From NCBI GenBank assembly GCA_963969365.1, contig OZ017750.1, forward strand, positions 1,302,001 to 1,366,000: DNA of 64,000 nucleotides, written 5' to 3'. The position numbers and the translations under genes are program-made. How positions within the stretch are numbered: the first letter of the stretch is position 1; each line of letters opens with the position of its first letter. Below the pieces are notes generated by a model. That model was not told the DNA's origin and made no database searches. It saw nothing but the letters and a program-made list of their open reading frames with translations. Below, in pieces: positions 3,001 to 64,000 of the stretch. The stretch comes from Asterochloris sp. CNOR1. Lineage: Eukaryota > Chlorophyta > Trebouxiophyceae > Trebouxiales > Trebouxiaceae.

Positions 3001-6000
3001 ACTGCTGTACTGCAGAGGAGGACAGTGCAATGTCGCAGTGTAAGCCAGCAGCCATCCAGCTGCCAAGTCCGGGCGAAGGGGCCACAGGGCAGGTGCTGCA
3101 GAGGAGCTCTCTGGCAGCAGCTGCCATGGCTCACAGGCCAGCTGCAGCTAGGTGAGCTGCACATGCATTTGGCCACCATCGTTGCTGGCCGATGGCATTG
3201 CAAAGGCAGTGCACACATGGTGGGAATGCAATCAAAGCCTGATGCCCAACAAACAGGAGCTGACAGCGCGATACCTTTTGCTCACGGCCTCCTCTCCAGG
3301 CTGCAGGTTAATGGCCCTGGCACTGGCCTGCATGCACCTCATTGCAACATCAGACCCGATCAAGTCTGGCAGTGATTCCCAGCTCCTGTGCACCTTCCTG
3401 GCAACCTTTACTGGCCAGGATGCCCTACCTGCAATGCATAACACCTGGACAGCAACCGAGGTGAGCATGCAGCTGTAGTGCAGCATGTATGTGCAGGATA
3501 CCTCATGAGCAAAAAGGGTCCTTCATGTCGGCTGCCAATCCATCTTTCTTTCACAGAGCCATAACTTGCTGTTGCAGCGTGTGAGTGCTTGTGGGAAGGC
3601 CAGCAAGTATTTCATAAGCCTGTCTGATGAGAGGCTGAGCAATTTTGACCTGGAGCTCACCCTCGTCCGCCTCCAAGCAGACTTGCTCTGCCTGGTCAGA
3701 GATGTGCCTGTTGGGTCATCTGGGCGCACAGTCGTGGAGGAGATGCAAGGTCCGATGCACAAACGATCACCTAAGGCTGTTCCCACAGCAGCTGCCTGGT
3801 GCTTGGTTGCTCAGGAAGTTTGCAGGCATGCAGCAAGCCAGATGGTGCACCATCAGCAGTGCACCGATTGTAGCTCCAGGCCTGCAAGCCAGGTGAGCTG
3901 CAGAGGAGCGGCCTGCTGCCTCCCTGATGGGCACACATGCCTGAGCTGGCACCTGAGCCATCTCGTGTCTGCTTGCCTGCAGGCAGCCTCAGTGAGGCTG
4001 CACACAAAATGCTGCTGGAGGCCTGGGACGACTGTCCCAAAGACCCCGAGCACAAGGGCAGCAACGGTTGCGGCTGGAAGGGCAGGGGAGGCCTGCTGGC
4101 AGAGCTGCTGCAGGTGCCCAGGGGCTTGCGACATGGTGCATGGCACTTCAAAGAGCTTTTGTTTGCACAGAACCATGTGTCAATGCAGCATGCGCATGCT
4201 GACAGGTCAGGGGTGGCCCCCTGGCCGAGCTGCTGCAGGCTGACGCTTGCCCCATGGCTTCAAAATTGTCGTGCTCGATGCCCCTGATGGTCCTGTCAGA
4301 AGCTCAAATGCTGGAACACACAATGCAACTGCAGATGTACATTCGACACTCAGAGGATCCTGTCAGCCTGCTGGCTCAGCTTGTTAGGGACGCGGTGATG
4401 ACAGTGCCAGCAGCTGCAACAGGGAAGGAGATGCACGAGCCAGTGGAAGCGTTCTCAAGTGAGCACTCAAGTTGCAACCGCACGACTTGCTTCACACCTT
4501 GACGCATGCCATAGCCACTTGCGGGTATGACGCCTGCTGGGCATGCAGCCCCTCCCAACATGCAGCCTGGGAAGAGATCATGCATAACAAGCAGTGCAGA
4601 GTGATCTGAAGTGAACACATGAGTCACCACTTTAGACCAGGAAGTGCGACGGTTCCCTGCGTTCTAATGCAGATAGGTGTCACAGGAACACAGATTCCAG
4701 CTTGTCAACGAAAAGACTGCAAGGCTTGACTTGAGCAGCATCTGACAGCAGAGCAGTGAGTCTGTGCTGAAGAGTGCCCATGCTGAGCATTCAGCCCCTT
4801 TAGCCTGTGTAGTCGATCTGGCTACAGGCCTTTCCAGTGCCACACTGTCCACCTGGTTCAAGACGCTGATGGCCGAGCTGATGCACCAGTGGCAGGAGCT
4901 GGCCTCGCTGACAGCCACCCTGAGCAAGGCGCACAGGCTGAGCTCCTCGAGCGCACACACGGTGGGCAAGCTCATGCCAGCGCTTGAGGATACGGCCACT
5001 CAGAGTTGCTTTGGTCTGATGCTTCCACGTGTGAGGCAGAAGCTGGCAGGTGAGCAAGGAATTTTGGCAGAGTAACTCCAGGTTACATACTTGTGCATGT
5101 CCTCGCTTGATATTGCTGCACTTCTGACCGAGCAGAGCCCAGGTTTCTAATCGACGGCATCTGCTGCTGATTCAACGAGAACCGGCTCTCTGACTTGACC
5201 TCACAGCACTGCACTGCTGCAGCACATGTTGCTGCAGGGACTTCGAGGGCTGCTGCTCCAGTGACAGCTGCTGATTCGAGCAAGTTTCATAGACTCAGGT
5301 CCACCTCATGCGCCATGGGTGTGACTGTGTGGGATTGCTGCTTTTCAGAGGCCATGACTCTGGCGGGGGTGGAGACTGCTGGTGCATGTGTGGTGGGTTG
5401 CCATCGTGCTTAGAGCACGCATCTGGCGGCTCATTCCAAGCATCCCCTGGCTGTGCAGGTTTCTGATGACAAGGTGGAGCACCTGCTCCGGCAGATGCAG
5501 GTGACCACTGGCAGTTTCACAGCGCTGCTGGATGTGGTCAAGATCCATGAGAGAAGGAAGCTGGTAAGAAAGCTGCAGCCCTTCTGGTTTTGGGCTGACA
5601 GTCCAGCGGGATGAATCCCACTGTGTATGTGGCGGGCTCATAGCTACATGTCTGGGGTGAGAGCTTGTATGCCTCAGCTCAACAAGCAGACTGCAGTGCA
5701 AGCAGGCCTCGCCCCTTTGTGGTGCAGATGCAGGCTCAGGCTGTGAGGATGGGTTCTAGAATCATTCAGGTGTGGCTGTGCTGCAGCTTTGCAATGTTTA
5801 CCAGAGCAGAGCCCCTGATGCTGAGGGTTGTGCTGCAGGCCTTCACAAGGATCCTGCCTTTTGTTTCCTGGTGGATTAAGTTGCACCAGGATACATTTGA
5901 CCACCTGTACAACGTGGGTCAAGCAATGCGCTCTGTCTTACTGCTTGATTACAGCAAAACAATGCACCCTATTGTATGCCTGCAGAGAGTCATAAAGCAT

Positions 6001-6750: not shown

Positions 6751-8325
6751 TTAGCCTCTATGCCTCACCACTTTAGCTACATAGGATGCACAATAGGGAC
6801 AATGCTGCTTAACGACTTCCTTTGCACACCGCCTGCATCGAGATAAAGGATACAATTTGTCCTGCCCTCTTGAGATAAATCTGCATTTATGAAGCCAGCA
6901 GCAGCATCCACGCGCCCACGTAATCTCCTGTGCTATGAAAACAGCAAGCAGAACCCACCCACCCGCATGTGATGACATGTAGACAAGGCATGGCCTTGAA
7001 GTCAGCCGCTATCTCGCCGCAGATCCAGCAGGTGGAAAAGTCAACTGTGCTTTCATTGAAGCTGCCCCCCACGCTGCCAGAATCGCTGCGCCTGCCATTG
7101 TCTCCTAGGGCATCTGGCCCTAGGCCAGGGGGTGGCCTTGAGGTGGAAAGCATGTGGGCCACAGGTGCAGTCTCAGGCGCCAACGTCTTTCTGATCTGTG
7201 CAGCCACCTGCACAGCAGCATGCTTGGCTTTGCTCGACGGCACATGGATGTGATGCAACTGCAGCCCTGCACCAGCTGTGGGCTGCTGTGCTGCCAGGGC
7301 CATAAACGCAGGTCACAGCAGCTTCAGCATCCAAGTTCACACCATGCATGAGGTGGGAGCCCCAGCTGCACCAGCTCAGCAGGAAACATGAAGCAGTGCT
7401 CACCTGGGCCTCCCAGTGGGCGTGCCTTGCCATGATTCTGTCAGAGGTGGCCCTGGCATCCAGGAATGAGCCATCTGGCAGCTGCATCAGGCGCAGTGTG
7501 TTGACAGCGTCATTGATGGTGTGGGGGGCCTTCAGTGACACCAGGGCCACATCCTCCTTGATCACCATGATGCGCTCAGCCTGCAGTGGGGGAAGCGCCT
7601 GATGTTGAAGGATGAGTTGGAGAGGCACATGGCCTGCCATGGTGTGCTCAGCTTGCAGCCAGGGAGCTGCTTGTCAGCTGCAGTGGACAAGTTCATGAGC
7701 ACAAGGCTCCTGGAGCACAGGGCCCTGCCCAGGCTGCAGTAAGCACTGGCCTCCCTGTAGCACATGCTCTGTGCAGCAGCCAGCTCGTGTGCTCAGCCTG
7801 CAGTGGGGAAGCTTGCCAGCGCAAGCTTCCATGGTGCAGACTTTGAGCAGCACTGGCTCATCTGGGGCAGCGCCACCCCGAGGAGACACCCCATGCAACA
7901 CTGCATCTGGACAACACTAGCTTAAAGCACGATTAGCCACGGATGCTCATCTCCAGACGCACACCCTGTGCGCACCTCTATACCTGCGCTGGACAGCAGC
8001 ACCAGAATCTCCAGTGAGTCGCCCTCACGGTCATCCTCCCAGCTGGGGTCTCTGAGGGGCCCCATCGGCATGAGCAGCTTCAGATGGTTCTTTGGTGCTG
8101 GAGGCCTGTAATCACTAAACTTGAATTCGCCATGCTCATCTCTCTCACGTGGCTGGTGTGGGTCCCCCCCTCCCCCTCTGTGGTGCCCTCTGTGGGCCCT
8201 GTGGCCTCCCTTGCCTCTCCAAGGCTCAGACTCCCCCTGCTCAGCACAAGATCAACGTCAGATGCCACTGAATGCAGTGATCTTGGCAGGCAGGCCCCAG
8301 GCAGAGCACTCACATGGCTGGACAT
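6751..8325 (-). CDS. Small C3HC4 RING-finger protein, probable E3 ubiquitin ligase
   Basis: Five exons join in phase: 8325-8314, 8236-7976, 7580-7404, 7285-6963 and 6832-6751. The predicted product is 284 residues. The N-terminus is 'MSSHGESEPWRGKGG' followed by an Arg/Gly/His-rich stretch. A conserved-looking middle follows ('KFSDYRPPAPK', 'PDGSFLDARATSDRIM', 'HHIHVPSSKAKHAAVQ') that I do not recognise; its last part is faintly KH-like. The C-terminus is a RING split by the last intron: CWIC, then PCLH, then TCGRC, then CPYC, giving C-x2-C-x11-C-x-H-x3-C-x2-C-x8-C-x2-C. A RING at the extreme C-terminus after an RNA-binding-like region recalls MEX3-type proteins, but that is only a resemblance. 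Ubiquitin ligase activity is inferred from the RING. The gene is convergent with FANCD2 and divergent from the Mpv17 gene. Confidence 0.82.
7566..7817 (-). repeat. Three copies of an acceptor plus exon-start block in the RING gene
   Basis: The true acceptor and exon start (exon from 7580 leftwards, 'ctgcag|GCTGAGCGCATC' on the minus strand) is echoed upstream in the intron. Echoes lie at about 7638-7668 ('GCTGAGCACACC') and about 7781-7817 ('ctgcag|GCTGAGCACACG'). The second echo keeps the polypyrimidine-like lead and an intact CAG. Together they account for much of this roughly 400-base intron. Confidence 0.7.
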
Positions 8326-17200: not shown

Positions 17201-20200
17201 TAGTGCATATGTGGACCTGCACCCTGCAGCAGCAGAAGCACTAATGCTGTTTAAAAGGAAACTTGCTGGCACCCCACATACAGCCTTAGCTGATCAGCCT
17301 CTGTGATCACCGCCGCCAGTGAATTGATGTGTCTGTCTGCGCCTGCAGCCCGCAGCAGCAAGAGCAGCGGCGGTGCGTCCAGCCGGGGCTGCTGGCACCC
17401 CACCAGCCGCGACTGGAACCTGCAGATCGAGAAGGACCTGCACCGCACCTTCCCGGGGCACCCTGTCATGGACGGCAGCGGGCGCAGCGCTCTGCGGCGC
17501 ATTCTGGCGGCGTACTCGCGGCGCAACCCAGCTGTGGGCTACTGCCAGGTGGGCTGTGTTCTGCAATCACCACTACACATGTGTGGCGACAGGCACTGTG
17601 CAGCATATACTGACGCGTGCACTGAACTGCAAGACATCAGGGCGACGGCTGCCATGCCAGAATGGCCTTCAGCTAGCACGCAACCCTCCCACAGGGCATG
17701 CACCTCATTGTCAGGGAGCTTGCTGCTTTTGATGTCACCTGATAGGCCTGTTCATGTGTTGCAGGGCATGAACTTCATTGCTGGGTGCCTGCTGCTGTTT
17801 ATGGCCGAGGAGGACGCCTTCTGGTGCCTCGCAGTCATTGTGGAGGAGCTGCTGCCAGGGTACTTCAGCCTGGCAATGGTGGCACCACAGGTGACGCCCA
17901 GCAAGGGGGGCTGCATCACCCTGGCCCTCGTTGCTCATGTGCTTCATCCTTGCCCCCTCTGCAGTGACTGCCGCTGGACTTTCTCAACCCTGTAAATTGT
18001 CGGCCCCCCTCTGCAAGCGCGACCTGCAGGCATCTTTGCCGGTAGGGTCAGTCAGACGCCTGCTTGGCTCAATCTCCTGTTGCAGCGCCTGCGTCCACAT
18101 CGTCTGACTGCCTCAGCAGATGGGGCAGCAGGCGTGCAAGCCCCTACCAAACCTGCACTTGTCATCAGTGCTGGCCTCGAATGTATCTTGTCGACTCTGT
18201 GCCTGCTTGGGCCAGCACACCCCTGGCTGCCGCTGCAGGTGGACCAGCTGGTGTTCAAGCACCTGGTGGACCTGCACTTCCCCAAGCTGGGCGCCCACCT
18301 GGAGGGCCAGGGCGTCAACGTCAGCAGCGTGTCCACCAACTGGTTCCTGTGCATCTTTGTCAACAGCCTGCCCCTGGAGAGCTGCCTGCGCGTGTGGGAC
18401 ATCTTCTTCTTCCATTGCTGCAACAGCGTCCTCTTCCGGGTCGCGCTCGCGCTGGTGGACATCTACAGCCAGGTGGGCCTGACTGCTGTTGTATCATTAT
18501 GATGCTGGGATGTGCTGCACTGAGCTGCTGCGTGAGAGCAGAGGGCTGGCCTGCACCCTTGCATGGCGCGCTTCTGCTGATGGCCTATCTGGCACCCCAT
18601 TCAGCCGCTGTGTGGATGTCAACCTGTTGTCCGTCCTGCCTTCTGCAGGCTTTGGTGGCCACCAATGACAGCGTGGATGCCTTCTCGCTGCTGCAAAACA
18701 TGGCACCCATGTCATACGATAGCAGCCGCCTGATCGATGTGGCCTGCATTGCCTTTGCTGGCGTGTCGGACAAACAGCTGGCTGTGCTGCGCCAGGCACA
18801 CCGCCAGACTGTCATCGCGCAATTTGCGGTGAGACTGACACTGCCATTGAAGGGCCTTTCTGCTGTCACTGCTCTGGCAGCTGTCAATGGCAGGCGCAGT
18901 TGACCTCCACGCCCTGCCTTTGCAATTGTTACGGGGGCAAATCAGAGGGCGAGATTCCTGCGCAGCGTGGTCAAAGCCCTGGTCAAGCCCTCGTCAATGG
19001 GGTGATTAGGCATGGGTCTCAGGCTTCAGCCCTATCAGGGGGGTGCCTGTACTGCCTTGCATTCTGTGTCCCCCAGCCCCCCTCTTCACTTCGCCCCATG
19101 GAGGCTGACAGCCCGAGTCCTGACCAGCTCAGCCTCAGTCCCCACTGGACGGCGGTGCACCCTGCATTGCAGGAGGCACCGTATGACGAGGAGGGCTGGG
19201 TCAGCAGCGGGGACGAGGCGCAGAATGGCACCCTGGTGCCAGGTAAGGACCAGCCATGCAGAGTAGGCTGCGAAATCCTGCCTTGTGTGCAGTGGGCATC
19301 GTTCACCTCTACAGTCTATGTAGCATCTGCGGCGCTTTCCATGCATCAGCATGCGGCAGACTGCTGCTTTTTGGCCACAAGGCGCCATGCTCCTGAGGCC
19401 TGAGGCCCTCACCTGATCACTGCTGCGCCATGAGCAGAGAACCAGAGCATATCAGCACCTGTGAGTGGTGTCGCTGTGAATCTGACTTCTCAGTTCCCAG
19501 CAAGATTAGAACAATCAGGACAATGGCCCCAGGCCAACCTCCACTGACCCACCATATGCAGAGCGAAGCGCGCACAGCACGCCAGTGGCCATCCCTGTGA
19601 CAGCCTTTGCCGCCCTCGATCCTGCGCTGGCAGCCGCAGAGGCCTCGGCTGCAGCTGAGCAAGGGACCTCATCCATTGGCCATGCCTCTCAGGCGGGCAG
19701 CCAGGAGGAGAGTGATGAGGAGCTGCAGGTGGCTGAGCGCAGCAGGAGTGCGTTTGTGCCGAAGCGGCGTTACGTCGAGGTGGGCTGCCCCTGCACAGCC
19801 TTCCAGAGTTTGCTGATCTAGAGGGAAGAGCAGCTCACCGCAGCAGGAGCGCGTTTATGCCCAGGCGGCAGAATGTGAAGGTGTGCTGACTTTCCACGCC
19901 ATGAAGATGGGGTTCACGCTTGAATCAATTCTTCACGCTGTGAAGGGGGCCTAGGAGGGGCATGGGTCTTGGAGGGCGGCTGTGTAGTAAGACCCCCTGA
20001 AACAAGATTGACTGATAGCTGAGCGCAGCTGGAGCGCCTCTGTGCCCAAGCGTGCCGTCCCAAGGCGTGCCTGCATTCCCAGGGTGTGCAGTCTTGCGTG
20101 ACAGCTGTGCAGATGCTGCCTGACATTGCTGCTGTCAGGCATCATGTCACACCACTAGCAGGGAGGTCTGCCGGCATCTCCTTGCATGTGGTAGCATTGA

Positions 20201-23200
20201 GATGTGCTGGCGAAGATGCTGCTGCCTTGACAGCAAGCCTCAGCATGGTTGACTGTCTCTGTCCCGTTGTCTGCACACACTTCATCTTCTGCATGATGTG
20301 CAGCCTCCCTGCTGCAGCTGCTGAGGGGCTCAGAAGGATGTTGCTCTCTGACTGTGGGTGGTCCCCAGGCGGATGACGGCTCCCCTCTGGCTGCCCTGCC
20401 TCAGTCTTCAGTGCTCACCATAGTGCAGGCCATGCAGGCATGCACATGCCACACAGCATGCAGGACTGCACGGCCAACACCCCCATCCCTGCCTGCTGCA
20501 GCCGCTCAAGGGCTCAGGAGGGCCAGACTCGCTGTGCGGGTCCCCCCGGGGCGACAACAGCTCCCCTCTGGTGTCCGACTCTGCAGAGGGCAGTCAGGGG
20601 GGGTCCCCGTGGAGCACGGTGTCCTCCCCTGAGTGGCACGACACCCCCAAGTGGCCGGAGTACGCAGACTTCAGCAGGCGTGCGCCGTCACGCCAGCCCA
20701 GCAAGCTGTCTCAAATGTCGCTGGCAGACGTGGCTGGGGTGGGGCCTGGGTCCGGGCTGCACCGCACACTCAGCCGGCGGGGCAGCACGGTAGGTGCCCT
20801 GCAGTGCTGTGGACAGGCAGAGCTCCACCTTCCGCCCCAGAGCTGGCACCTGGCACGTGATGCAGCACCGCACCCTGCTTGTGTTGGCTGTTTTGAGACT
20901 TCTGAGAGCCTAGGGTGTTGTGTTGTGGTGGTGCTGCTACAAGTCAGTCTGGGGAGTGTTTGGAACAAGTGGTGAAGAATGGACTGGAACGGTGCCCCCT
21001 TGCTGTGGCTGGTGCTGCCCTTCCTTGCTGTGTCTGACCCTTCCCCACCAGGGGCATTCCTGCTTATTCAGCCTTGCATGCCAGCCCAGCCTGTGCCCCA
21101 CTTAGGTAGGTGTTTGCTGCCGAGTGAAGGAGCAGCTCTTAGGCGCTCAAGCCTGTGCCCTCAATGCTGCAGCCGCGCCTGATGAGGCAGCCAAATCCTG
21201 CAGCTGCCTTCCATTCCCTTGTGACGGTGATGCCCACACCTCACCCTCATGGCTGCAGCCACGCATACACATGCAACCTGCGCCCCACTCAGAGGAGGTC
21301 TATGCTGCCGAGCGTCAGAACAGCATGCAGGCAGCCACGCTGGCAGCTGCCATCCAACAGACGCAGGAGGTGGGGCACCGCCTGCCCTCCATTCGGACGA
21401 GCGTGGCATCCCCTCCTGCACAGCACGGCGACATCAGCCTCGGGCAGAAGATCTTCAACAGGTTCCGGAACCAGGAGGCTGTTCTGAGTGAGTGCTGGGC
21501 TGGGTGACCTGCATGATTATGGGCTGCTTGCGGGGAGGGATGGCCAGAGTGTTCTGGGACCGTGATGCTGTTCTGAGTGATCGCTGAGCTGCGTAACCAG
21601 GAAACAGAATTGCTGGCCCAAGGGAGAGCTGTTTGCAGTGGTCTGGGAGCTGCCCGTTGTCTTGAGTGCATGCTGACCTCAGTCGTCAGTAGCTTTGCAG
21701 ACTGTGCTGCATGCGGATCCTTGCTGTCTCAGCAAAGCCTGGGCCCAATGAGCCACTGCAGCCTCTCAAGGCTGTGAGCGCCCTGCCCTGCAGGCAAGCA
21801 GCTGCAGAGCATTGTGCCGCAGCGGCCGGAGCACAGGCGCTCTGGGGAAGAGCAGGCTGGCTCTGCCAGCACTGCACAGGGCGAGACAGCAGCCACCTCG
21901 GGATCTCAGGTACACATCTTGCTCGAAGCCAGCCAGCAACGCAACCTGACTTGCAGTGATGCTGCTTGACCGGCGCTGCTGCAGAAGGCAAGGCGGTGGC
22001 CAGGCTGGGGTGCTGGTCATGCAGGGGCACCCCCAAGTGCAGCCACAACTGCATGGATTACTGCAGAGGGTCAGTCACCGGCCAGCACCATGTCTCACCC
22101 TGATGAAGGCCGCCCGCCTGTGTCATATTTTGCCAGTTCACGTGTCAGCTTCCCCTCGCTGCCTGCTATCTGCAGCTTCCCATGCACAGCTCCTGAGCAG
22201 TGCTAAGCACAGTCCTGCAAGTTGTGCTCCATCAGCTTGCCTGCTGAGAGCTTGCCAAACATGCTCCACCTGCTTGTTTGCTGAGGGCCAGCGCCCGATA
22301 GCAGTGCAACTGTTGTGTGCAGGCTCGTGAGGCAGCAGGTGGTCCCGACCCCCAGCAGTATCCAGCTGGGGGCCCCACTCCAGCGCCCTCCCCAGCCCAC
22401 CGTGTAGCGGCCCTGCACCCGGCCTCCTGGGGGGTGGAGCGGCGCACGCGGCTGGCAGCCCCATCTCAGGCGGGAGCCGTCTCTGGGGGTCCCCACGCGC
22501 CTCCCACCACTCCGCAGGTGGGGCTGCAGGTCCTCACAGGAGGTCTGCAAGCACCTATGATTGCCAAATGCCTCTGCCTGAGCCAGGATCCAGCTCTGCT
22601 GGGCATGTCGCCTTCAAGCCTCTCGGCAGGTGGCATCCTGATGCACAACATGTCAATGCGTGTATGGCCCTCCTTGAATGGTCTTCTGCCTGCTGTGCTG
22701 TGCCTGAGTGGGGGAGGGCATGGCGTGGACACCCAGCATGCCCACATTCAGTTCATGTGCACCTCACCTCTGTCCCTGCTGTCGTCAGCGCTGTGCCTGG
22801 TCTCCATGCGCCCAACTGCAGAATCTGCCAGCCTTAAGCCTGACCTGGACTGCCAGCTGGCTTGCGTCGGCACCCTTGAAGCCCAGAGTGAAGGTGGCGG
22901 CCTCCTGTGCCTGCAGGACACCCCCAGCCAGAGCCAGGGGGCTACGCCCAAGGCAGCTGCCCGCGCCAGTCCAGACCCTGGGGACGCTCGGGATGCTGCC
23001 GCACGCAGTGGCAGCAGCAGCAGCCTCCCCCAGGCTCCCCAGCTGCAGGGCCAGCAGCCCCAGAGTGCTGACCCCAGCAGCAAGCTGCAGTCCTATTGCC
23101 CAGATTTTGAGGACGCCAGCCCCACGGGCAGCCCTTCCGCTGCCTCCCAGGATGGCCTGCCTGAGCACCAGTCCCCAGCGCAGCTGGAGCCTGCCTCTGG

Positions 23201-36560: not shown

Positions 36561-36562
36561 AA

Positions 36563-37950: not shown

Positions 37951-38963
37951 TCACCAGAAGGTTGGGGGCATGTCTGGTGGGTAGCCTGTAACAGTACCCT
38001 GCGCTGGTGGGTAGCCCTGAACTGGGGCACTGCTGCTGCTTGTGCCTGTGTTGGTGCCGTTGGGATATTTGTTATCCCATCTGCAAAAGGCGGTGTCACT
38101 CAGCTGACATGGATGCAGCATGGCAAGACCCAGGTGCAGGCTTGTGTGGCTGGTGCGATGCAGCATTTCAGCAGCAGCGCCAGGGGCATTTGCATTCCCA
38201 GACAAGCCTGGGCTGCAGGGCACGCCAGCGTGACTACCCCTGCTTGTGCTCGAACAGATGTTACATCAGAGGCTGTCAGGCGCATGACATACTTCCACAC
38301 TCACTGGTTCTGTCCTGCATATTGCTCCCCACGTGGCTGGTGCGCGGCGGGCACATAGCTGTTCTGTGCTGGGTACCCCTGCTGGGCTGGGTAACCTTGC
38401 TGAGCTGGGTACCCTGGCTGCTGCTGCTGGTGCTGAAGCTGATTTGCCTGCAGCAGTAACGAGAGTTCAGCCAACTATCTTGGCTGCAATACCCCAATAT
38501 GATATGGGAGATAGCTGGCAGTCACCTAGCTTCCCTAAGCAGCATAGCTTGCGGCATGATATACACACTCTCAGGAAATGCATTGAGGACGCCAGGCTGG
38601 CAGCTTCGATGACAGCAGGCTGTGGTGGCCCCGCCATCTGCAAAGCAGTCTGAAAGGGAGACTGAGGACCTCAAAGCATAGCACAACAGCATCCCACTCA
38701 CGTGCCAATTCGCATATGCCCTCCTGCGGCGTTGCACCAGGCAGCAGCTGTAGATCAGGATGGCGCACGCAACAGCAAAGCAGATGGCTGCAATCACGAT
38801 TCCCACAACCCTTCCGCCACTCCAGTTGTAACTGCAACAGCATGTGTGTGTGTGAGGCACAGTGAGAAAACGTGCATTAGCATGTCTGGGGTCTTCTCTG
38901 TCCTGATCATGCTCACCCATCATCACAGTAGTAGCCGTAGCACTGAAGCAAGCTCCTGGCCAT
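37951..38963 (-). CDS. Small Cys-rich single-pass membrane protein with Gln/Pro/Tyr tail
   Basis: Four in-phase exons: from ATG at 38963, then about 38831-38700, 38452-38305 and 38082-37951. The product is roughly 120 residues. It begins 'MARSLLQCYGYYCDDG', a short Cys/Tyr-rich extracytoplasmic segment. One transmembrane helix follows ('VVGIVIAAICFAVACAILIY') and then a basic stop-transfer 'QRRRRAY'. The tail has three QGYPAQ-type repeats and two 'GYPP' motifs and ends 'MPPTFW' and stop. The layout (CxxxYYC, membrane helix, Arg cluster, PPxY/GYP-rich tail) recalls the animal Shisa/WBP1/VOPP1/CYYR1 group of adaptor-like proteins, but I claim no orthology. The tail could bind WW domains or drive clustering. 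There is no cleavable signal peptide, so insertion would rely on the membrane helix itself. Confidence 0.66.
38305..38452 (-). repeat. QGYPAQ repeat exon
   Basis: This exon encodes three near-identical QQGYPA-type hexapeptides. The plus strand shows the matching 18-base period (GGGTAACCTTGCTGAGCT and relatives) at about 38360-38415. It forms the low-complexity cytosolic tail of the membrane protein. Confidence 0.75.
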
Positions 38964-44200: not shown

Positions 44201-47200
44201 TGCAGGGGGCCAGTGGCCTGCGTTTTGCAGCACACTTGATGGCAGGTGGCCTTGTCATGTGTGCAACTACATTCCAATCTTGGTCTGCAGGGCATGGTCG
44301 CAGTAGCCTGCACAGAGCCGTTGTCCTTCAGCGAACGTGTGGAGGTGGCGGGCACCCCCAAGGCGCACGCCGTCCTCATCTGGAACTTCAAGGACCCCAT
44401 CCACCCCGAGATGGTGCTGGAGAGCCCCTTTGAGGTGTTCAGCTTCCAGTGCAACCCTGCGCAGCCAGATGCTGTGGCTGGCGGCTGTCACAACGGGCAG
44501 GTCATCCTATGGGACGTCAGCGCAGAGGAGGTGATTGAAGGGCGCGACCCCTGATGTGGCGCACACAAGTTGGAGGCCGTTCTGGGGCCGCTTTTGAGCC
44601 AGGTCACATAGAGGGGGAGCTGCAGCAGGGCAGACAGCCATGCAGCCCTGCATCTATGCCTGCTGCAGACCTGAGCTGTGCTGCAGTGCCACTCCGAGCT
44701 CTGATCAGACAGCCGCCTCTTGGATTGCGAGTAAGGTTTCAGTCGGCCGTGACTGCTGAGTACGCCAACATCAGCTTCATTGCGCCCTGTTCCTGCAGGC
44801 CTGCATTGCCAGCAATCACACTGGCCTGAAGTCAGACTCTGCCTGAAGAGCTTCCATTCAAGTTTGCCCTGCCCCTTCAGGCATGCATTGCCTGGCTATG
44901 TGCATCTACAGCAACCCTGCAATTGTTGCCGAGTCTTTCCAACAGGAGCTTCTGCCCCTGCAGGGAGCACATCCGGGTCTGTTGCTGCAGGCAAACCTCA
45001 CAGCCTTCCACCCTCAAATAGAGTTGGGGCCTCGTGCAGTGCTCCTTTTCTGTGCCCCCGCAGGAACGCATTGCCCAGGCGCGCATCGCCAGCAATGACG
45101 AGGCCAGCACCAGCAGCGCGCATCGCAGCCGTGTGCCTGTTGACCGCAGCGTCAGCACTGCAGCAGAGTTCGGTCAGACAGCCGACAGGGCAGCCATTCC
45201 TGTGGTCCGACACCAGCACCTGTCGCTGGTGGATGCCTCCCACCATTCCAGTGTCACAGATCTGCAGTGGCTCCCAGGGATGGCCATCACAGGAAAGGGA
45301 CGGCCGCCCACTGCCAAGGTGGGATTCACGCAAGCAGCCGCAGATGCAGGATTGCTGCCCACGCGCCATGCAGAGACAGCCGAAGGCGCTAGAAGGCTGG
45401 CCCTTTGCAGCAGTTCATGGTCTGTTGGCATTACTCATAGCTCTCTGGCGACGTGGCAGCGCTATGGGAAGCGCAGCTGCAACAGGGCCCCAGACTCATC
45501 ATACCTTCAGCTAACGGGGACAGCTTTGACTTTGTCCCGGAGTCGGCGGCTGCTTTGCAGCTCTTCAGCCATACAACAGCATCAGGCTCAGCCTGGCAGC
45601 GACCAGTCTGCAGGCCTTCAGCCGGACACCCAGCAAGCTGAGCCAGGAACTCAGAGCAGCCTGGGGCTGCCTGTGCAGGCTTGGCCATGGCTGCAAGAGG
45701 GCATGGTCAGAGCTGCGTGAGCTGCTGGCTGCCTGGCAGCAGCTGCCTGTAGAAGCAGCAATGGCTGCAGAGAGGCCTGCTGAGTCCGAGGTACTGCAGA
45801 AGACGTTCTACACGTGCCAGGCGGCTGCTGCCACATGACGCACTGACTGGGTCCCCATCCCACTGCCTGCAGCCCACAGATGAGGGCAGGGCAATGCGGG
45901 AGTGCAACTTCTTTGCCACCACTGCGGCAGATGGCAAGGTCCTGTTCTGGGACATGCGTGTTGGCCGGGGCAAGCGCAAAGTCAAGAGGTGCGGCTGGCA
46001 GAGCCACAGTGCCATCAGTGCCTTGTGATCGTGAAAGTGCCAGCTTGGACCCGATCATGTCATTGCCTGCCAGAATGCCTATGATCTCCGCTGCTTCTTG
46101 GCACATCAATATTCACTTGGAGACGTGTGCATCTTGGTCAGTATTTAAGTCACGAAATGACAACAGCCTCCAGCGGTCCAAGCTGGGCGCATGCCAGCCC
46201 TGAGCACAGCTGAAAGTTGCAATTTCAGCATCTTTTCTGCCTGAGCATTAATTCCAACAGGCTCAGTAACCGATGTCAACAGCTTCAGCTTTCGCGGTTG
46301 GGCGCGGGAGAATAAGGGTATTGGTCGAACATGGTGCATGCGCAGCTCAGCACACCTGTGACAATACCAGGGCTGCCATGCAGGGAGGTGAGGATGAGCC
46401 CCTACCCCAAGTGCATGCGCAGCTCAGCACACCCAGGACTGCACCCACAGTGCCGCTGGCTGCTGTGCATGGAGGGGAGGATGAGTTCCTGTCTTGAACG
46501 AGCATGTGCAGACCTGCTCACCTGTGACAACAGCAACACCGCCCTTGGCTGCTGTGCAGGGAGGGTGACGACGAGGAGGTTGAGTGGCGCCCCACGTTTG
46601 CTGTGACGCTGCTTAGCCTGGAGGGCGCAGAGCTGGCCTGCATGCGCCTGTGCATCAACATCAAGGGTGCTGCGCAGAGCACCTTCTTCGTCAGCAGTTT
46701 TGACGGGGAGCTGGTGTATGCCGACTGGATGCGGCCAGAGGTGCGCTCCACTGCTATCTGTTTCCTCAGTCTGCTGAGGGCCCTTGTGTGTTTTCAAGTG
46801 CTGTGTCAGCTGCCTCGAAAGGCGCTGCCATGCCATGCATGCGCCGGCAGTGGACGGCTGCGTGTCTGCCACACAACCCGGCTGGTGATGAGCACTGCTC
46901 AGCAGCCCCCATGGCTGCTGCCTGGCGAGGAGCACCCCACAGCGCTGCATACTAGTCTTGCTGCTCCCATAGGAAGGTGGGTACTTTCACAATGAGCACA
47001 TCACGACTGCTGATGTTCCTTCAGCAGCCAGCTGCCTGGCCTGCAGGGTGAGGAGCACCCAGAGCACTGCAAGTCCATATCCAAGGCCCACGCAGGGGCA
47101 GTGGTCACCCTGCAGCGATCCCCCTTCTTTGATGACATCCTGCTCAGCACGGGCGACTGGAGCTGGGCCCTGTGGCAGGAGGGCCGCCACGACATCTGCC

Positions 47201-48611
47201 TCTTCCAGTCGCTGCTGGCTGCTGCACAGTACACTGCAGGCTGCTGGAGCCCCACACGTCCAGGTGAGAGTTAGCCTCTCGGTGCATGTTATGTTTGCAT
47301 GTGCAAGGCTGCAGCAAGGCACAGCATGGGCTGCTGAAGCCCTAAGTGTCACGGAGTGGATCACACACTGCCTGCTGGCCGCTGAGCGATGGGCATGTTT
47401 GCTGCCATTACTGGCCTGATTCTGCAGACCAGCTCTGACTGGCTGACGTCTGTCGAGATGTCATATGTCGGCAGAGCTGACAGATTGCTGGGCGCTGTGC
47501 GGTCTGTCAAGACTCCCCTCTGGCTGACCTGTCCCTCTGTAGGTGTGCTGTATCTGGGCAGGGCAGATGGCGTCCTGGAGGTGTGGGACCTGCTGGACCG
47601 CAGCCATGAGCCCTCCATGACAGCCAACCCCACCTCCTCAGCCATCACCTCCCTGTCCTTCAGCCCGGCTGGCGCCCCTGCGGCCCCAGGCGGCCGTGCT
47701 GTGCAGCAGCTGCTGGCTGTCGGTGAGCCCAGCGTGCCCTTCGTGCAGTATGCCCGCCCAGTTCCAGCAGCAGCGGCTCGTCTGGTGTCAGCCAGCTGTC
47801 CTAGGATGCAGTCGCAGAGTCGCTGGGCAGGCACTTATAGGTGGCAGATGCTCACACTGCTCACAGCTGTCTGTCTGGTGCCTTTGGCAGCCCTGAGATG
47901 CTCCACGTGGGAACTCTGCCACAGCGCTGCTTTCATGGCGTCCAGAATGGTAGCGGCCTGCCTGCTGCAGGCGACAGCACTGGCGTGCTCCATGTGATGG
48001 ACCTGCCACGAACGCTGCGGCGCAGGGTGATCAATGAGGTCAAGACAGTGACCACCTTCATGCAGCGGGAGCAGCAGAGGCTCGGGTACTTGGCCTCTCG
48101 TAAGCCCATCCGGGCAGAGGCAGCCAAGGTGATCCCTTGCAGACGGGAGTGCGACGAAGTCCTGCAGGCCAGTGCTGGCTATAGGATGCAAGCAGGCAAA
48201 TGCCGCAAAGTTGAGCAGCATGCAGAGCTGTGATTGGATGCAATGCTTGGCTGCAGGTGCAAGCGGAGGCGCAGAAAGCGGCGGAACAGAAACGTGAGGC
48301 AGAGGCAGCTCAGGCGGCCGCAGCTGCAGCAGCATCTGCAACCGGGGCACCTGTCGCGCCGCAGCTCAACAAGACAGATGTAAGCCTCATGACACGACCT
48401 CAACATGCAGACTGCTGATTGGCTCATGTGTGTTGTGTTACAACAGAGCTGACACTGCTGGGATGTTCAGCTCATAACCAGTGATTCAATGAATTGCTCC
48501 ACACTGCAGGAGGTGGACGAGATGGCTGAGCAAGCATATCGCAAAATGGAGCAAGCGTTCAGAGAGCAGCTGGGCCTCGCTGCTCAGGCACCAGCTGCTG
48601 CTGTGCGCTGA
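41231..48611 (+). CDS. WDR63: Axonemal inner-arm dynein intermediate chain WDR63/DNAI3 (IC140)
   Basis: Intermediate chain of the two-headed inner dynein arm (I1/f), called IC140 in Chlamydomonas. Exon 1 is 41231-41257 ('MSKEEAGAL'). Next come 'GVFSLFLTS', 'GAISDFHPIKNAV', 'SKKEWVARPWQSL', 'VDMEEESEGQSRPGLLVLA', 'RPFRDSNYDLRRVEQDI' and 'QQNEVTNIFEDDF'. The block 'ITEYQSFVDLTFSKNK' follows. These match human WDR63 block by block. The WD propeller follows ('AVLIWNFKDPIHPEMVLES', 'AGGCHNGQVILWDVSA', 'TVADGKVLFWDMR'-like at about 45930, 'SPFFDDILLSTGDWSWALW', 'GVLYLGRADGVLEVWDLL'). The C-terminus is a charged coiled coil ending 'QAPAAAVR' and stop. One intron (42547-42769) may use a GC donor. Two introns hold multiple echoes of their acceptor junctions. 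Confidence 0.97.
44785..45095 (+). repeat. Three copies of an acceptor/exon-start block in WDR63
   Basis: The true junction is GCAG|GAACGCATTGCCCAGG (about 45060) followed by CGCATCGCCAGCAATGACGA. Echoes lie at about 44797-44820 (TGCAG|GCCTGCATTGCCAGCAA) and about 44876-44900 (TTCAG|GCATGCATTGCCTGG). All three keep a pyrimidine-containing lead and an AG before the shared GCATTGCC. Confidence 0.68.
46332..46590 (+). repeat. Three tandem ~80-base acceptor units in WDR63
   Basis: Each unit begins near CATGCGCAGCTCAGCACACC (about 46336 and 46416; degenerate CATGTGCAGACCTGCTCACC at about 46503). Each ends in a GCTGC-rich acceptor and exon-start string: CAGGGAGGTGAGGATGAG (about 46381), ATGGAGGGGAGGATGAG (about 46469) and the true CAG|GGAGGGTGACGACGAG (exon from 46560). 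Only the last copy is expected to be used. Confidence 0.78.
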
Positions 48612-55700: not shown

Positions 55701-58700
55701 TCGGCAGATCCGCAGAAGGCAGCGCAGCGGCGCAAGCAGATGATGTTCGAGCTGAATAGGAGCGGGCAGTACCTGCAGCTGCAGGAGCAGCTGCGGGCAT
55801 GCGTGGTGCGCATCGTGCAGGAGCACTTCCACAAAGCGGGGACGATGGACAGGCAAGACATGCAGGTGAGGGCAGTGCCATTCATGCTTTCGCAGGAGGC
55901 GCTTGTCAGTCTGTTTGGGTTTCCACTCCTCATGCAGGGCAGCCGTGATGGACAGGGGGAACATGCAGTGGGGACAAAGATCTGAAGAGTGTCCACATGC
56001 GATGTCGCGTCTGCTGGCACAAGGGAGAAGCGAGGATTAATGACAGAGCCACAGGGCATGCAGCTGATTTGTTCATCAACTCCATGCTGAAGCAGTGCTG
56101 ACTGCAGAGTTTCCCTCACAGGCTGGGGACATGCATCTGAGTTGGGGTGCTGGGTCGGCTGCACGCAGCCACAGAAGGGATCGAACACCCTCCTGGACTA
56201 CTGTGTACTGCAGGAGCTGCACACCAGGCTGTGCAGTGTGCTGACATCTGAGGAGTGCAAGGTGCTCAACCCAGAGCTCTGCACATTGCAGGGCCTGCAC
56301 AACAAGCTGTACGTCGTGCTGACGACGGAGATGCATAAGGCCCTCAACCAGCTGCGTGAGCAGGGAGGGGAGCCAGCACCCGCGGCAGAGGGCGCACAGA
56401 TGGCTGAGGCTGCGCCGAGCTCTGCGCTCCTGAGCACAGAGAAGCTGAAGCAGCTGCAGGGGCTGGCAGATGAGGCAGAGCTCAATGGGGATGCCCGGGC
56501 TGCTGTGGGCTACCACGAGCAGCGTGTCATGGGCAGCACCAGCGCTCAGGTGGGCTGCCAGCAGGCCTCCCTTTGTCATGCCGTACCCTTGCTGGCGTCC
56601 CACTGCCTTGTCTGCACATGGCAGGTCCACCTGCCACTGTCTGCCTTGCGTCACACTGCACCTGTGACAGCTCTCTCTGTTGATTTTTCGCATACACTGA
56701 CCAACAAGACTACCATTGCTGCTCCTGCAGGCCTGGTACGAGTTTGCAGCCTTCAGCATGCGTACTTGCAGCCTGGATCGCGCTGAGCAGTGCCTGCGCG
56801 AGGCTCTGGCCATCGACCCTGGGCACCAGGACGCCCTGCTGGCACTGGGCTGCCTGCTGTGGCACAGCGGCTTGCACACAGATGCAGCCTTCCTGCAGCA
56901 AGCAGCAGTGCTGCTGCTGCATGCCAAGGATGATCTGCTGGCGGCTCACCCTGTAGCAGCAGCCATGGCCCAGGAGCAACAGGTGCTGCCAGGGACAGAA
57001 CCGCAGCCAGCAGAGGAGCAGCAGGGGCAGCCAGCGCTTGCAGGCCGGCCGCCACCAGCCAGCAGCCCTCGCGGCGGCGTGCAGCAGAGCGTGGCGGTGG
57101 TGTGGGCGCTGCTGGGGCTGGTGTACGGGGCTGCTGGCCAGGACGAGGAGCGCCGCAACTGCAGCTTTGAGGCCTACCGCCTGGGGCTACTGCAGCTGCA
57201 GGGGGCCCTGGCCAGCCAGCCATTGCTGCAGGTGTGCTACTCTGCATGGCAGGCCCAGTGCTGGCTCTTCTGTTGTCACACAGGCCACCTTGGGCACTAC
57301 CCAGCCAATGCTGCAGGTGGGCCACACCTGAGCTGTTGTGGTCATCAGCTGCCATCTAGGCCTGCAGTGGTCTGTTGTTCAGGGAAGCGTCAGTGGGGCA
57401 CCCTGTGTGGCCGACAGCATCTCCGTGAGAGCCTAAAACATAGGTGTGCTGGGTTGCTGGGGTCAGTGTGTGGCCAGCCAGAGCCCCACAGCCTTCTCAA
57501 ATGATGCACTGGCATGCTTGCCAAACTGCAGACTGCGACCAAGAGCTATGGGGCTTGCTCTTCAGACCAGCTTCATCGATGTCCAGGTTCCAGCGTGTGC
57601 CCTGCAGGCTGCGCTGCTCCTGCTGGACCTGCAGCTGGGGACCTGCGCCGACTGGGCGCTGCAGGCGCTGGCAGATGCTGAGCCAGCAGCCAGCCTGGCA
57701 GCAGACATTGCGGTGTGCAAGAGCCGGGCAGCCTTCCTGTGCGGCCGGGAGGAAGGTGGGACCCCAGCACGGCAGCCAGCGCAGCGAAACAGCAGTCGTT
57801 CACGGCAAGCTGTCACTTGATGCCTGGCTGCACCTTTCAGGCTGCTTCAAACCTTCTTCTAGGTAGCAGGCACCACATCTCCCAACCCTTGACGGCCTGA
57901 AGCCTCCCCCCCTCTCTGCAGAGGCCATGGCTCAAGCGCATGAGGCCACTCGGCTGGCGTCCCCCGAGGACATCCGCCCTCATGTGCTCCTGGGGAACAT
58001 GCATGCAGCAGCTGGGCGCCCGGCAGAGGCATCGGCCGAGTACCAGGCAGCCCTGCAGAAGCAGCCGACTGCCTGCCCCCTGGACGTCTACCTGCGCCTG
58101 GGGCGGGCCTTTGCTGAGCAGGACCAGCATGAGTACGCACGCAACGTCTTTGTCCAGGTGGGGGGGCCTTGCTGCCAGTGCAGGCATCATCATCGCTGAG
58201 GCCGCTCCTGGTGTGGCAGGCCCAAATCCTGTATGCATGTCTATGTCCAGGCAGGGCTCAGCATGGTGCCAAGACCAGCCTAGCACAGAGCTGGGCCAGC
58301 AAGAGTACGCATGCAATGCGTTTCTCCAGGTGGGCTCAGTATAGTATAGAGATCAGCACTTCAGCGCAGAGGGGGCCCAGCATCAGTCCATCCCCGCTGT
58401 GTTTACTTAGGTGAGCTGAGCGCAAGCATGGGTGTGGTGCTTGCACCTCCCACAGCCCTTGTCCATGCTGCTGCAAATCCTCCTGCAATCCATCCAACAG
58501 CAGCCGTCAGGTGGACCCTTGCAGGGCAGGAGCAACATAGGCATGCACACACTGTGCTTGTCCATGTGTGGAGTGCTGAGACTGAATTTGCCAGCGCAGG
58601 CTATGAGTGAGGGCTGGAGCCACGCGCCATGCACCTGACAGTGCCTGCATGGTCTGGCAGCTTGCCCCACCCCTTGCTCAACAGAGGGGTTTGCACACGC

Positions 58701-61234: not shown

Positions 61235-61619
61235 CTGCTTGTGACGTGCAAGTTGCAACTCAGTATTGAGTGTCAGACCTGGTAAGAAGGGTCTGAGCAG
61301 AAAAGTCAATGCAGGGAGCCCCATGGCCAGCAAAGCTTGAGTTCCCCAGTCTAGGCAAACTGCACCTGCTATGTGTGATGCAAAATTTAACACATTTAAA
61401 TGCCCCAGCTGCTGCTGCGGAGGGGGGGGGCGCGGGGGGGAAGGGGGGGGGCCAGGCATGAACTTGCAGCAGGAGCATGCAAGGGTGCCAACAGATGAGG
61501 CACAAGCAGCTGCACGGGGACTGATGTACAGACCAAAGTTACCCACAATATAATACATTCAACCTTTGATGTGCTCAATAGAGGAAGGGCAATCAGTTTA
61601 GACTTGAATGGTCAGCAAG
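61235..61619. other. Spacer with G-rich tracts upstream of the peroxiredoxin-like gene
   Basis: These 385 bases lie between two minus-strand genes. The notable content is a purine tract of three near-contiguous G runs at about 61422-61452 in an otherwise AT-richer spacer. No coding exon is seen. Confidence 0.55.
61420..61452. repeat. G-run cluster (possible G-quadruplex)
   Basis: Three runs of about 7-9 G are separated by one to three bases (pattern G9-CGC-G7-AA-G9, approximate) on the plus strand. The cluster lies about 190-220 bases upstream of the start codon of the minus-strand gene, so the C-rich strand is its sense strand. Confidence 0.8.
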
Positions 61620-64000
61620 CTACCAGGCATATGCGTTCCTGGATGTATTGAGGACACCCCAGGACTGAAACACGTGAAGGTGGGAGCAGAAGGCCTCCAT
61701 TGCTGGAGTCGTGTCTGACCGCCCCACCATGAGGCCATGCACCTCCAGGCCCAGCTCCTCTTTGGCAGTCTTCAGCTTGTCACAAATGTCTTTACTGGGC
61801 ATGGGGATCTCCCCATCTGTGACCATGAGGATGTCCGCCTGCGGCAACTCAGCTCTTATCAGTGCAGCACAGCAGATGTAGGTAGCGCTTGCACTCTAGC
61901 TGCTTCCTAGAAGGTCCAGGCAGATGCAGTAGCTGCTGAACAGATGACGCTGAGATATTCAGGGCTTCACACAGGCTCCATGGAAGGGCCGCCCTGCCTG
62001 CAGCAATGCGCTGCAGGAGTGGTACTCGAGCTAGCAGCTAGCCTGCTGCCACTCCTGCCGGCAGCATGAGCACACTGCCAGACAACCAGCTGGAGGTCTT
62101 CTGAGCTCACCTGGTCTACTCCATGATGGTCAAGCGCTTCAGGCTCAGCTCCCAGGGCATGCCCACACAGCTATCAGAGGCTGCCTCTACACCAGTCACA
62201 AGGTGACCTACCTGGTTCCAAAAATGACTGGTCAGGCACTTCAGGCTGAGCTGGAAGGACATGTGCAGCTAGGGAGCTCTCAGCCCAGGCACCACCCCAC
62301 ATACTGAGGCAGCTTACCTGTGTCCACCCCACATCGGTAAGGCGCTTCAGGCTCAACTCCAGGGGCTTATCCACATCAGTGCCGCCAGTGAAGCCGCCAC
62401 TCAGGAAGTCCAGCAGCTGACGTATGCCCTTCGCAGTTGTATCGAGCTCCAGCTCCATGACCTGACCTGGACCGCTGCAAAGGCACACACATGAGGGCCA
62501 CTTGGGTGCTGCAGCATGTGGCGGGCTGGCTCATGGCTGGGGGTTTGGTCAAGCTCAAGCTCCATGACCCTAACCCTGCGGCTGCAGAGACACCAGACAG
62601 GCACGCTACCAGCGTGCTTGATGCCAAAGGGCATGCCAAGCCAGCACGCCTACACTTCATCACCAGACACCGCCCGCTGCACAGGGACACGCGCACATGG
62701 CTGCTGAAGCCTGTGCTGCAGTGCGGGCAGGCCTTTGGGGCTGGCATTCAGCCGCAGCTCCATCACCTGACCTTCATCACACATGAAAGCTGTCCCCAGC
62801 CTTGCTGCTGCGGCCCTGCTTGGCACGCCAGGCCGGGGCAGCTGCTCAGGTAGCTCACCACTTGCCACTGCTACGCAGTCCAGCCTGATCTGCATGACTG
62901 GCACTAGCACAATCCCACCAACTGAGGGCGCAGGTGCACCTGAAGGCATAGAGGTAGCACTGCCGCTCCTGCCTGTGGGCCCCTCGCATGCACTCCAGCG
63001 CGACCGCCTTGGCCACAGTCTCACGAGCACCAGCCATGGACCCTGCACAGCGCAAGGAGCTGCTCAAGACATCGCACCAAGTGGCAGAGCCGCATGCAGA
63101 GCTTCCCTGGCGCACAGTGGGGAAGGTGGGCTGCCAGGACACTGGCTAGCCAGCACATGCCACCACAGTCATGGTGGCATATGACGTGAGGCACTCAAGC
63201 TCGGCCCCGATGTCAGGGGTCCCCAGCTGCATGTCAGCTGCATGAGATGCCCTGCACCAGATCAGCACAAAGGAGCAGAGACGAGCCCTGCCAGGCCTGT
63301 GAATCTAACCCAGCATAGTGGCAGGCAGTCCATGTGCAGCAAGACAAGCCAGCACATCAGTTGCATGGTTCCGGTGCTCGGCGCACCTGAGGTGTCCAGG
63401 CAGCAGATGATGGGCCCCATCTCTGCAGCTGGCCGGATCTCCATCCTGGCAGTCACCCGAGTGGGCTCCCCCTGCAACCACCCTGCACAAGCCCAGAACA
63501 GGAGTCTCATCAAGCCTGCGTGTCGCAAGCAACATCCCTGATGGGTGCTCTTTGGCATAAAAGTCAATAGGTGCAGGCAAGACCTGCCATATTCAGCAGG
63601 GGGGTATGGTCTCTGAGCGGCATACATGCAGCGGTGGCAGCCCGTGGAGGGCTCTCATCCAGGCAGGTAGCCTGCTGCTGAGCGAGACAGCAAACAGCTG
63701 CTGACCCGGGAAGCGGCTCTCAAGGTGCCCGCCTGTGCCCCCACCTGTGCGCTCATAGCTCATGAGATTGCGCTCCACGCGGCGGACCATGTGGAGCAGG
63801 CGCGCAGCCCGGGAGCCCTCAGGACTTTGGCCACTGCGCCCACTCTGGTCCTGGAAAGTGAGGGGAGTTGGGTTCATGCCTGTCATCACTTCTGCATGGC
63901 TGCACCAGCCACACTGGGTATGACGCCCACAATTCATTTCTGACACATCAGTGGAGCAATGACTGGGCGTTGGTCCTCCTCGCTAACACCAGCATACACT
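61620..64000 (-). CDS. ViaA/CoxE-like von Willebrand factor A domain protein (5' end outside window)
   Basis: This is the C-terminal part of a VWA protein of the ViaA type, which partners MoxR-like AAA ATPases (RavA in bacteria). Exons from the right: 'QSPEGSRAARLLHMVRRVE' and 'LMSYERTGGGTGG' (about 63860-63720), then 'RMEIRPAAEMGPIICCLDTSG' (about 63460-63390) carrying the MIDAS DxSG. Next is 'SMAGARETVAKAVALECMRG' with 'CYLYAFS' (about 63045-62945). The exon 62475-62318 has 'GPGQVMELELDTTAKGIRQL' and 'GFTGGTDVDKPLELSLKRL', with the MIDAS Thr. The last exon is 'ADILMVTDGEIPMPSKDI' (MIDAS Asp) with 'GLEVHGLMVGRSDT', ending at 61620. All three metal-site motifs are intact. The introns on both sides of the 62475-62318 exon contain degenerate copies of that exon's ends. 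Confidence 0.9.
62102..62800 (-). repeat. Exon flanked by echoes of its own two ends, VWA gene
   Basis: On the minus strand the exon 62475-62318 starts GTCATGGAGCTGGAGCTCGA and ends CTGAGCCTGAAGCGCC-type sequence before CAG|gtaagct. Its start is echoed upstream at about 62548-62590 (after CTGCAG: GTCATGGAGCTTGAGCTTGA) and about 62745-62795 (GTGATGGAGCTGCGGCTGAA). Its end is echoed downstream at about 62208-62255 (CTCAGCCTGAAGTGCCTGAC, CAG|gtaggt) and about 62109-62157 (CTGAGCCTGAAGCGCTTGAC, CAG|gtgagc). Start copies lie only upstream and end copies only downstream. Confidence 0.8.

Follow-up and report, generated by a model that had tools for sequence, protein, structure and literature searches.

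In rice, tandem duplications of 50-200 bp are the commonest insertions and are ascribed to the repair of adjacent nicks, as described in PMC7971508, where Vaughn and Bennetzen 2014 is the reference given. Small tandem duplications are also known from mouse and human cells, where CST-guided Pol alpha-primase fills in breaks that carry 3' overhangs (PMC8355091), and in a potato gene a duplication across an intron-exon boundary has been described (PMC4974935). Here we analyzed a 64,000-nucleotide stretch of DNA (the window), which lies within a 56.38-Mb assembly of 21 contigs and in which sequence at exon-intron junctions recurs, in degenerate form, inside the adjoining introns. These recurring copies, which we call echoes, are probably what decay has left of direct duplications that arose locally throughout the genome, were mostly 50-250 bases long and have been sieved by selection on exons. 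Most likely, the duplication had no special attraction to exon-intron borders.

For comparison, one 10-kb stretch was taken from each of contigs C1-C18 (2.0-4.5 Mb each), giving 18 loci (L002-L019). Eight further loci (L024-L027 and L029-L032) formed a held-out set, and 50 kb of E. coli K-12 (L028) served as a bacterial control. Genes in the window and the 18 loci (244 kb) were predicted from sequence by a self-trained hidden Markov model (HMM), which yielded 409 introns with a median length of 226 bases, the donor consensus CAG/GTGAGC and the acceptor consensus CTGCAG/. Repeat pairs were found by ungapped self-comparison (+1/-1), usually with a threshold score of at least 18; clusters were built at a score of at least 17. 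Counts of clusters and of retained splice sites cover the window and 26 loci, with 167 clusters and 539 predicted introns. Low-complexity pairs were removed in the analyses of repeat coverage and junction crossing, unit filling, frame and codon position, held-out offset counts, clusters, splice-site scoring and stop counts. They were retained in the offset densities and, for the window and 18 loci, in the shifted-annotation junction test and the counts of direct and inverted pairs.

Short-range direct repeats and splice junctions

Direct repeats at offsets of 40-300 bases were far denser than those at offsets above 1 kb in the window and the 18 loci. The window contained 0.8-4.7 pairs (score at least 18) per million cells at offsets of 70-299 and 0.02-0.04 above 1 kb, and in both samples the shorter offsets were tens of times denser. 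The excess in the held-out loci was of the same kind but weaker, with 19 pairs at offsets of 70-299 (1.05 per million cells) against a density of 0.079 at 600-6000, or about 13-fold. In all three samples it dropped away past approximately 300 bases. Direct pairs at 70-299 also outnumbered inverted ones (28 vs 0 in the window, 107 vs 14 in the 18 loci and 19 vs 2 in the held-out loci), so that the repeats have both the direct orientation and the short range of local tandem duplications. Two direct pairs were found at 70-299 in the E. coli sequence, compared with one at 600-6000, and the short-range density there was 0.175 per million cells as compared with 1.05 in the held-out loci; a low local excess of direct repeats exists even in a bacterium.

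The repeats were then related to predicted splice junctions. Among 158 pairs from the window and the 18 loci (offset 40-600, score at least 18), 34 combined a junction-spanning copy with an intron copy, whereas 19.0 ± 4.4 did so under shifted annotation and none of 300 shifts reached 34. The other classes were exon+intron (29 vs 29.8), intron+intron (27 vs 35.7), exon+exon (30 vs 20.6), exon+junction (9 vs 12.3), both copies junction-spanning (2 vs 3.4), intergenic (8 vs 19.0) and other (19 vs 18.2). Eleven of the 32 held-out pairs were of the junction-spanning and intron class, against 4.0 ± 2.1 under shifted annotation (3 of 500 shifts were as high), and intron+intron, exon+exon and other pairs numbered 11 vs 9.1, 2 vs 2.9 and 7 vs 11.7. 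The observation made in the first-pass annotation is confirmed and is beyond chance. Repeats crossed 24 donors and 22 acceptors of the 409 introns. These counts exceed the 13.6 ± 3.2 found for random positions within introns, but they are only a little higher than the 19.1 ± 3.3 found for random positions within exons.

In the 270 of 409 introns that fell within the length limits, a 45-base block from the exon end matched its own intron at a score of at least 15 on 17 donor sides and 8 acceptor sides, and a random mid-intron block matched its own intron in 7 cases. Donor-side exon ends were therefore above the mid-intron rate and acceptor-side ends were not. The same exon-end blocks matched other introns of like length in 0/1080 (donor) and 1/1080 (acceptor) comparisons, and their reverse complements matched in 1/270 and 0/270. 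These controls bear on chance similarity, which might arise because the genome is GC-rich and its splice consensus abounds in CTGCAG and CAGGTGAG. Matches between far-apart positions are also somewhat commoner at exon edges (0.5-1.0% against an exon average of 0.35%), as such an explanation would have it, but the other-intron, far-offset and reverse-complement controls were near zero, while near repeats covered 6-9% of exon edges. Chance has next to no likelihood as the source of the echoes and is refuted by these controls.

On the donor side, near repeats covered 8.8% of the last 20 exon positions, whereas within the intron coverage was 3.5% at 20-39 bases from the donor and 7-9% at 60-119 bases from it. 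On the acceptor side, coverage stood at 6-7% across the exon's first 40 bases and at 1.6% in the intron 21-40 bases upstream of the junction. Exon edges therefore pair with more distant intron positions, and intron sequence adjacent to the junction pairs less. Median offsets in the window and the 18 loci were approximately 115 for junction-spanning, 103 for intron+intron and 196 for exon+intron pairs. A local repeat copy could be recognised over at least 15 bases in 96 of the 539 predicted introns. The 167 clusters comprised 45 junction-spanning, 27 exon+intron, 36 intron-only, 38 exon-only and 21 other clusters; 32 of them had at least three copies, with irregular spacing.

It is possible, though in our view unlikely, that a process linked to splicing or transcription (for example, R-loop nicking near junctions) duplicates exon-intron borders faster than other DNA, so that introns grow serially by copying of their edges with filler and gain spare splice sites. 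The excess over shifted annotation in two sets and the donor-side exon-end matches are consistent with such targeting, as are the frequency of three or more copies in junction-spanning clusters (14/45, vs 2/36 in intron-only clusters) and echoes such as 58288-58334 that match only the exon end and about five intron bases. However, intron-only and exon-only clusters were nearly as common as junction-spanning ones, acceptor-side exon ends did not exceed mid-intron blocks, and junctions were crossed barely more often than random exon positions. Extra copies in junction clusters are also expected if the exon copy acts as a lasting reference, and uniform placement followed by selection and decay yields similar class ratios at suitable ages (see below). 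Thus, the copying process proposed in the first-pass annotation is upheld as a repeated, local one that acts across unrelated genes in all three samples and adds intron sequence, and its aim at intron edges is unsupported.

An origin from introners or transposons was also considered and rejected, with low power for short worn copies, as neither four tracts searched genome-wide nor the 45 junction-spanning clusters recurred in unrelated genes. The genome-wide searches found only the tracts themselves and did not list their own local copies, which means that they were sensitive to long close copies only. Compared with the other 26 sequences, the junction copies of the 45 clusters reached a maximum score of 20 (17/45 at 17 or above, one of them at 20).

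A probable history of local duplication, selection and decay

We infer four steps of repair, filtering and decay. A break or a pair of nicks would be repaired with doubling of the flanking stretch, which might leave filler between the two copies or be followed by additional rounds that would give three or more copies. Within exons, only duplications that preserve the frame would survive. If a duplication crossed a junction, the outer splice site would stay in use, and the mRNA would be unchanged while an extra copy of the exon edge would come to lie inside a longer intron. Selection would hold the exon copy as intron copies drift, and pairs that include an exon edge would remain recognisable longest. 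The similarity would then look junction-centred because the exon-edge copy is conserved on one side, whereas the intron part drifts in both copies. Likewise, acceptor copies would lie upstream and donor copies downstream, as was first noticed, because this arrangement leaves the mRNA unchanged.

Several observations are consistent with this scheme. After 11 of 30 low-complexity pairs were dropped, the offset was divisible by 3 in 17 of 19 exon-exon pairs, as compared with 19 of 71 pairs with unlike exon/intron content; the frame agreement also counts in favour of the gene models taken together. In 18 of 71 pairs, similarity filling the duplicated unit exceeded each of the 30 nulls, where about 2 such pairs were expected. 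In 13 gapped alignments of copy boundaries (two of them covering the same region), the copies abutted with no gap in L012 (7623-7729 and 7730-7833) and at 46390-46476 and 46477-46565 of the window, and gaps of 4 and 8 bases were seen in L003 and L006.

We also simulated tandem duplications placed uniformly on the gene models, with a filter for mRNA and frame and subsequent decay; exon substitution rates (0.15 of neutral at codon positions 1 and 2 and 0.45 at position 3) were chosen, not measured. With an indel rate of 0.1 and a mean age of 0.25 or 0.35 neutral substitutions per site, the ratios of junction-spanning, exon+intron and intron+intron pairs were 583:613:768 and 275:427:243, respectively (observed 34:29:27). 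The ratio of exon-involving to intron-only pairs was 1.56 and 2.89, compared with 63:27 (2.3) observed and 12:11 (1.1) in the held-out set. Mean mismatch was 0.225 and 0.239 (0.218 observed in 99 pairs), and intron extents were 22 and 16 bases (15.5 observed). What the simulation establishes, within the limits of the model, is that no edge-targeting is needed, and nothing more.

The splice sites carried by the echoes suggested another possibility, that echoes function as alternative or decoy splice sites or as selected alternative exons, which we consider very unlikely. As the first-pass annotation had it, most echoes keep the splice dinucleotides (GT in 21/26 and AG in 15/21; under other flank rules, in the window and the 18 loci, GT in 21/25 and AG in 9/14), and the echo site scored at least as high as the annotated site in 8/26 donor and 6/21 acceptor echoes. 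Occasional use of some of these predicted sites may occur. However, mean site strength was lower in echoes than at annotated sites (5.9 vs 9.3 bits for donors and 5.5 vs 10.4 bits for acceptors), a comparison that is biased in that the HMM picks the stronger site. When read in the exon frame, 84 pairs contained 11 stops in 896 echo codons, near the 15.9 ± 3.8 expected if the echoes evolve freely (64 of 500 simulations were as low); therefore, most echoes are not maintained as coding sequence, and alternative or coding exons were rejected as their explanation. The synonymous share of changed echo codons (0.262 vs 0.214 ± 0.018 if free) speaks for function, but drift of the exon copy also predicts a synonymous excess.

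A further possibility is that the echoes are birth marks of introns that arose, as in the Rogers model, by tandem duplication of exon segments bearing AGGT. This is highly improbable, although one case resembles it: at 4114-4238, use of an alternative acceptor would give an intron exactly as long as the offset (125 bases), and the sequences flanking donor and acceptor are similar on either side. The segment 4239-4334, which this acceptor would make coding, had a coding score of -14.9 bits, no better than that of 88% of stop-free intron segments, and the short intron is therefore unsupported. Across introns, in-register similarity of donor and acceptor surroundings with a score of at least 8 was found in 11 of 362 (3.0%) as compared with 67 of 2532 mismatched pairs (2.6%), and with a score of at least 12 in 0 of 362 and 4 of 2532, counts in which wrong gene models would hide cases. 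Intron-gain geometry was rejected across the 362 introns, as there was no excess over mismatched pairs.

A number of results weigh against local duplication with selection and decay as we describe it. Some concern the pairs themselves. The 18 loci had a smaller inverted excess (14 pairs at 70-299 vs 5 at 600-3000), held-out exon+intron pairs numbered 1 vs 4.3 under shifted annotation, and 6 of the 12 held-out exon-intron offsets were multiples of 3. Mismatches between exon and intron copies rose over the three codon positions (0.194, 0.222 and 0.272; chi-square p 0.0006). The third-position rise ratio was 1.31 in exon-intron and 1.40 in exon-exon columns; with rises so nearly equal, the codon-position test by itself does not tell coding echoes from freely evolving ones. 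Where a cluster had several intron copies, these were less identical to each other (0.716) than to the exon copy (0.779; 31 non-independent comparisons in 16 clusters), as decay would predict, but this contrast is biased towards exon-intron pairs in that columns were taken from the alignment to the exon copy. The intron-intron identity was lower than both exon-intron values in 19 of the 31 comparisons and higher than both in 4.

Other difficulties concern the models. Simulated exon extents were 39 and 38 bases at the two ages (26 observed), and the fit shown above was selected: over nine settings, the ratio of exon-involving to intron-only pairs varied from 0.87 to 4.89, and uniform or exponential ages gave 1.0-1.2 instead of the observed 2.3. 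Simulations of strictly abutting two-copy duplication (seven settings) predicted unit filling in 47-67% of pairs, as against the 18 of 71 observed, and a purely abutting model was rejected. The shortfall comes in part from irregular tracts with at least three copies, and probably in part from filler DNA or larger indels. Consistent with filler, and contrary to simple abutment, a young pair in L016 (4444-4633 and 4674-4846; copy lengths 190 and 173, with 95% identity across 111 ungapped bases) already has unmatched sequence between its copies. Over 4444-4846 of this locus, the duplicated intron and its exon edges lie on either side of a predicted 92-base exon, and about 35 unduplicated bases lie between the copies. 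Finally, uniform ages, which correspond to a constant rate, placed 22-37% of pairs below 10% mismatch, where 7 of 99 were observed. Constant-rate simulations were thus rejected for their excess of young pairs and shortage of exon-involving pairs, and the suggestion in the first-pass annotation of an ongoing process was not borne out. Young tandem copies may have been lost again by recombination, as we infer, or the process may have slowed.

Echoes in the window

In 12 clusters of the window, a copy that crosses a predicted splice junction was matched inside an intron, and a further 5 clusters were of the exon+intron type (score at least 17); ungapped junction-spanning matches were 21-65 bases long with 66-95% identity (Table 1). 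Of the unrelated genes in which echoes had first been reported, the FANCD2-like, TBC, WDR63-like, CFAP70-like and VWA genes were found to contain them, and the RING gene was not identified. Echoes were also present in the serine acetyltransferase gene and in two other minus-strand genes that had not been named. Serial extra copies, another early claim, proved real at 58102-58163, 19732-19796, 7565 and 46502, with two further copies each.

Table 1. Echoes in the window (positions are those of the window)
Gene and side	Span	Strand	Copies	Measures
FANCD2-like	855..1003	+	exon copy 855-892 near donor 907; intron echo 966-1003	offset 111, score 20
FANCD2-like, donor	4058..4264	+	exon end 4058-4113 and intron start; echo 4185-4264 in predicted intron 4114-4334	gapped score 74 (maximum 59 in 400 far-apart window pairs); ungapped 42 bases, 83%, offset 125
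Minus-strand gene, acceptor 7580/7581	7565..7813	-	junction copy 7565-7593; intron copies 7637-7668 and 7787-7813; exon 7404-7580	three-copy cluster
TBC, acceptor	17203..17366	+	intron copy 17203-17240; junction copy 17329-17366	offset 126, score 18
TBC, donor	19732..20052	+	junction copy 19732-19796; intron copies 19832-19897 and 20017-20052	offsets 101, 286, 185; no second long genome match
TBC, acceptor of the intron holding the 19832 and 20017 echoes	20304..20571	+	20304-20337 and 20363-20390 recur at 20488-20521 and 20544-20571	offsets 184, 181
TBC, donor	21462..21598	+	21462-21509 across donor 21487; copy 21551-21598	offset 89; 48 bases, 79%
Serine acetyltransferase, donor 35766/35767	35594..35789	-		offset 164; 32 bases, 88%; unit fill above all 30 nulls
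WDR63-like, acceptor	43410..43563	+		offset 121; 33 bases, 82%
WDR63-like	44784..45075	+	44784-44810 and 44866-44892 upstream of exon starting 45040; weaker copy 45046-45075 at exon start	offsets 82, 183
WDR63-like, acceptor 46559/46560	46334..46565	+	three-copy tract ending at acceptor; 46502 recurs at 46334 and 46411; 46390-46476 abuts 46477-46565	cluster; gapped alignment, zero gap
WDR63-like, acceptor 47970/47971	47865..48009	+		offset 87; 58 bases, 66%
CFAP70-like, donor 57231/57232	57216..57325	+		offset 85; 25 bases, 88%
CFAP70-like	58102..58571	+	exon end 58102-58163; echoes 58288-58334 and 58510-58571 in 634-base intron	83% over 47 bases, 71% over 62; no second long genome match
VWA	62114..62375	-	intron copies 62114-62167 and 62229-62263; exon copy 62322-62375	three-copy cluster
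VWA, acceptor	62426..62593	-	junction copy 62426-62488; intron echo 62549-62593	offset 107; 45 bases, 73%

The names FANCD2-like, WDR63-like and CFAP70 are labels of the first-pass annotation only. Pfam searches with pieces of five window proteins confirmed TBC and TPR repeats and placed VWA below the cut-off. Residues 1-471 of the WDR63-like protein had no match, nor did the piece taken from the FANCD2-like one. When part of the FANCD2-like protein was used to look for homologues, 7992 candidates were scored and none reached E 0.001. Among 120 listed homologues of the serine acetyltransferase, the best named ones were from Myrmecia bisecta, Trebouxia and Elliptochloris (56-67% identity), and another showed 73% identity; judging from sequence, the host is taken as a trebouxiophyte-like green alga. 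Two minus-strand predicted exons of the window contain short repeats of their own: 5.5 copies of a 15-base unit at 31069-31150, in a predicted coding exon, encode an Ala-Ala-Ala-Glu-Ala repeat, and an 18-base repeat at 38364-38420 encodes GYPAQQ repeats. Outside the window, a minisatellite with an 84-base unit, approximately 3 copies and about 90% identity lies in a predicted intron at 8383-8632 of L026.

Comparison with known duplication processes

In this alga, local duplication visibly contributes to intron sequence. If our interpretation is correct, exon-edge echoes would be datable fossils, in which the exon copy keeps the ancestral sequence and the intron copy records neutral decay, and they would provide a neutral clock within one genome and allow duplication rates to be estimated with no need for another species. 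Work on intron origin would be misled if they were taken for the product of an edge-targeted mechanism or for marks of intron birth. A literature search on echoes of splice edges returned no title on the subject, which is not proof of their absence from print.

Introners, the intron-creating elements described in PMC9860276, resemble the echoes in that sequence is repeated within introns. However, introners recur in many genes, and the algal echoes did not recur in this way in the sequences searched. In published intron gain by boundary-crossing duplication, the duplicated stretch likewise spans a splice boundary and carries splice signals along, but there a new intron forms, whereas in the alga an existing intron becomes longer, without an excess of gain geometry. 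The duplications made by CST and Pol alpha-primase (PMC8355091) are similarly short, local and direct, although they were shown in mouse and human cells. The rice duplications described in PMC7971508 share with the echoes their direct orientation, local placement, similar sizes and greater frequency outside than inside exons. They differ in that the algal copies are old (mean mismatch about 22%), were read in one genome, often have unmatched sequence between them and have unreadable breakpoints. Taken together, the echoes fit the known mutation class of local duplication, and what is new is the dense and old record of it in a trebouxiophyte-like alga.

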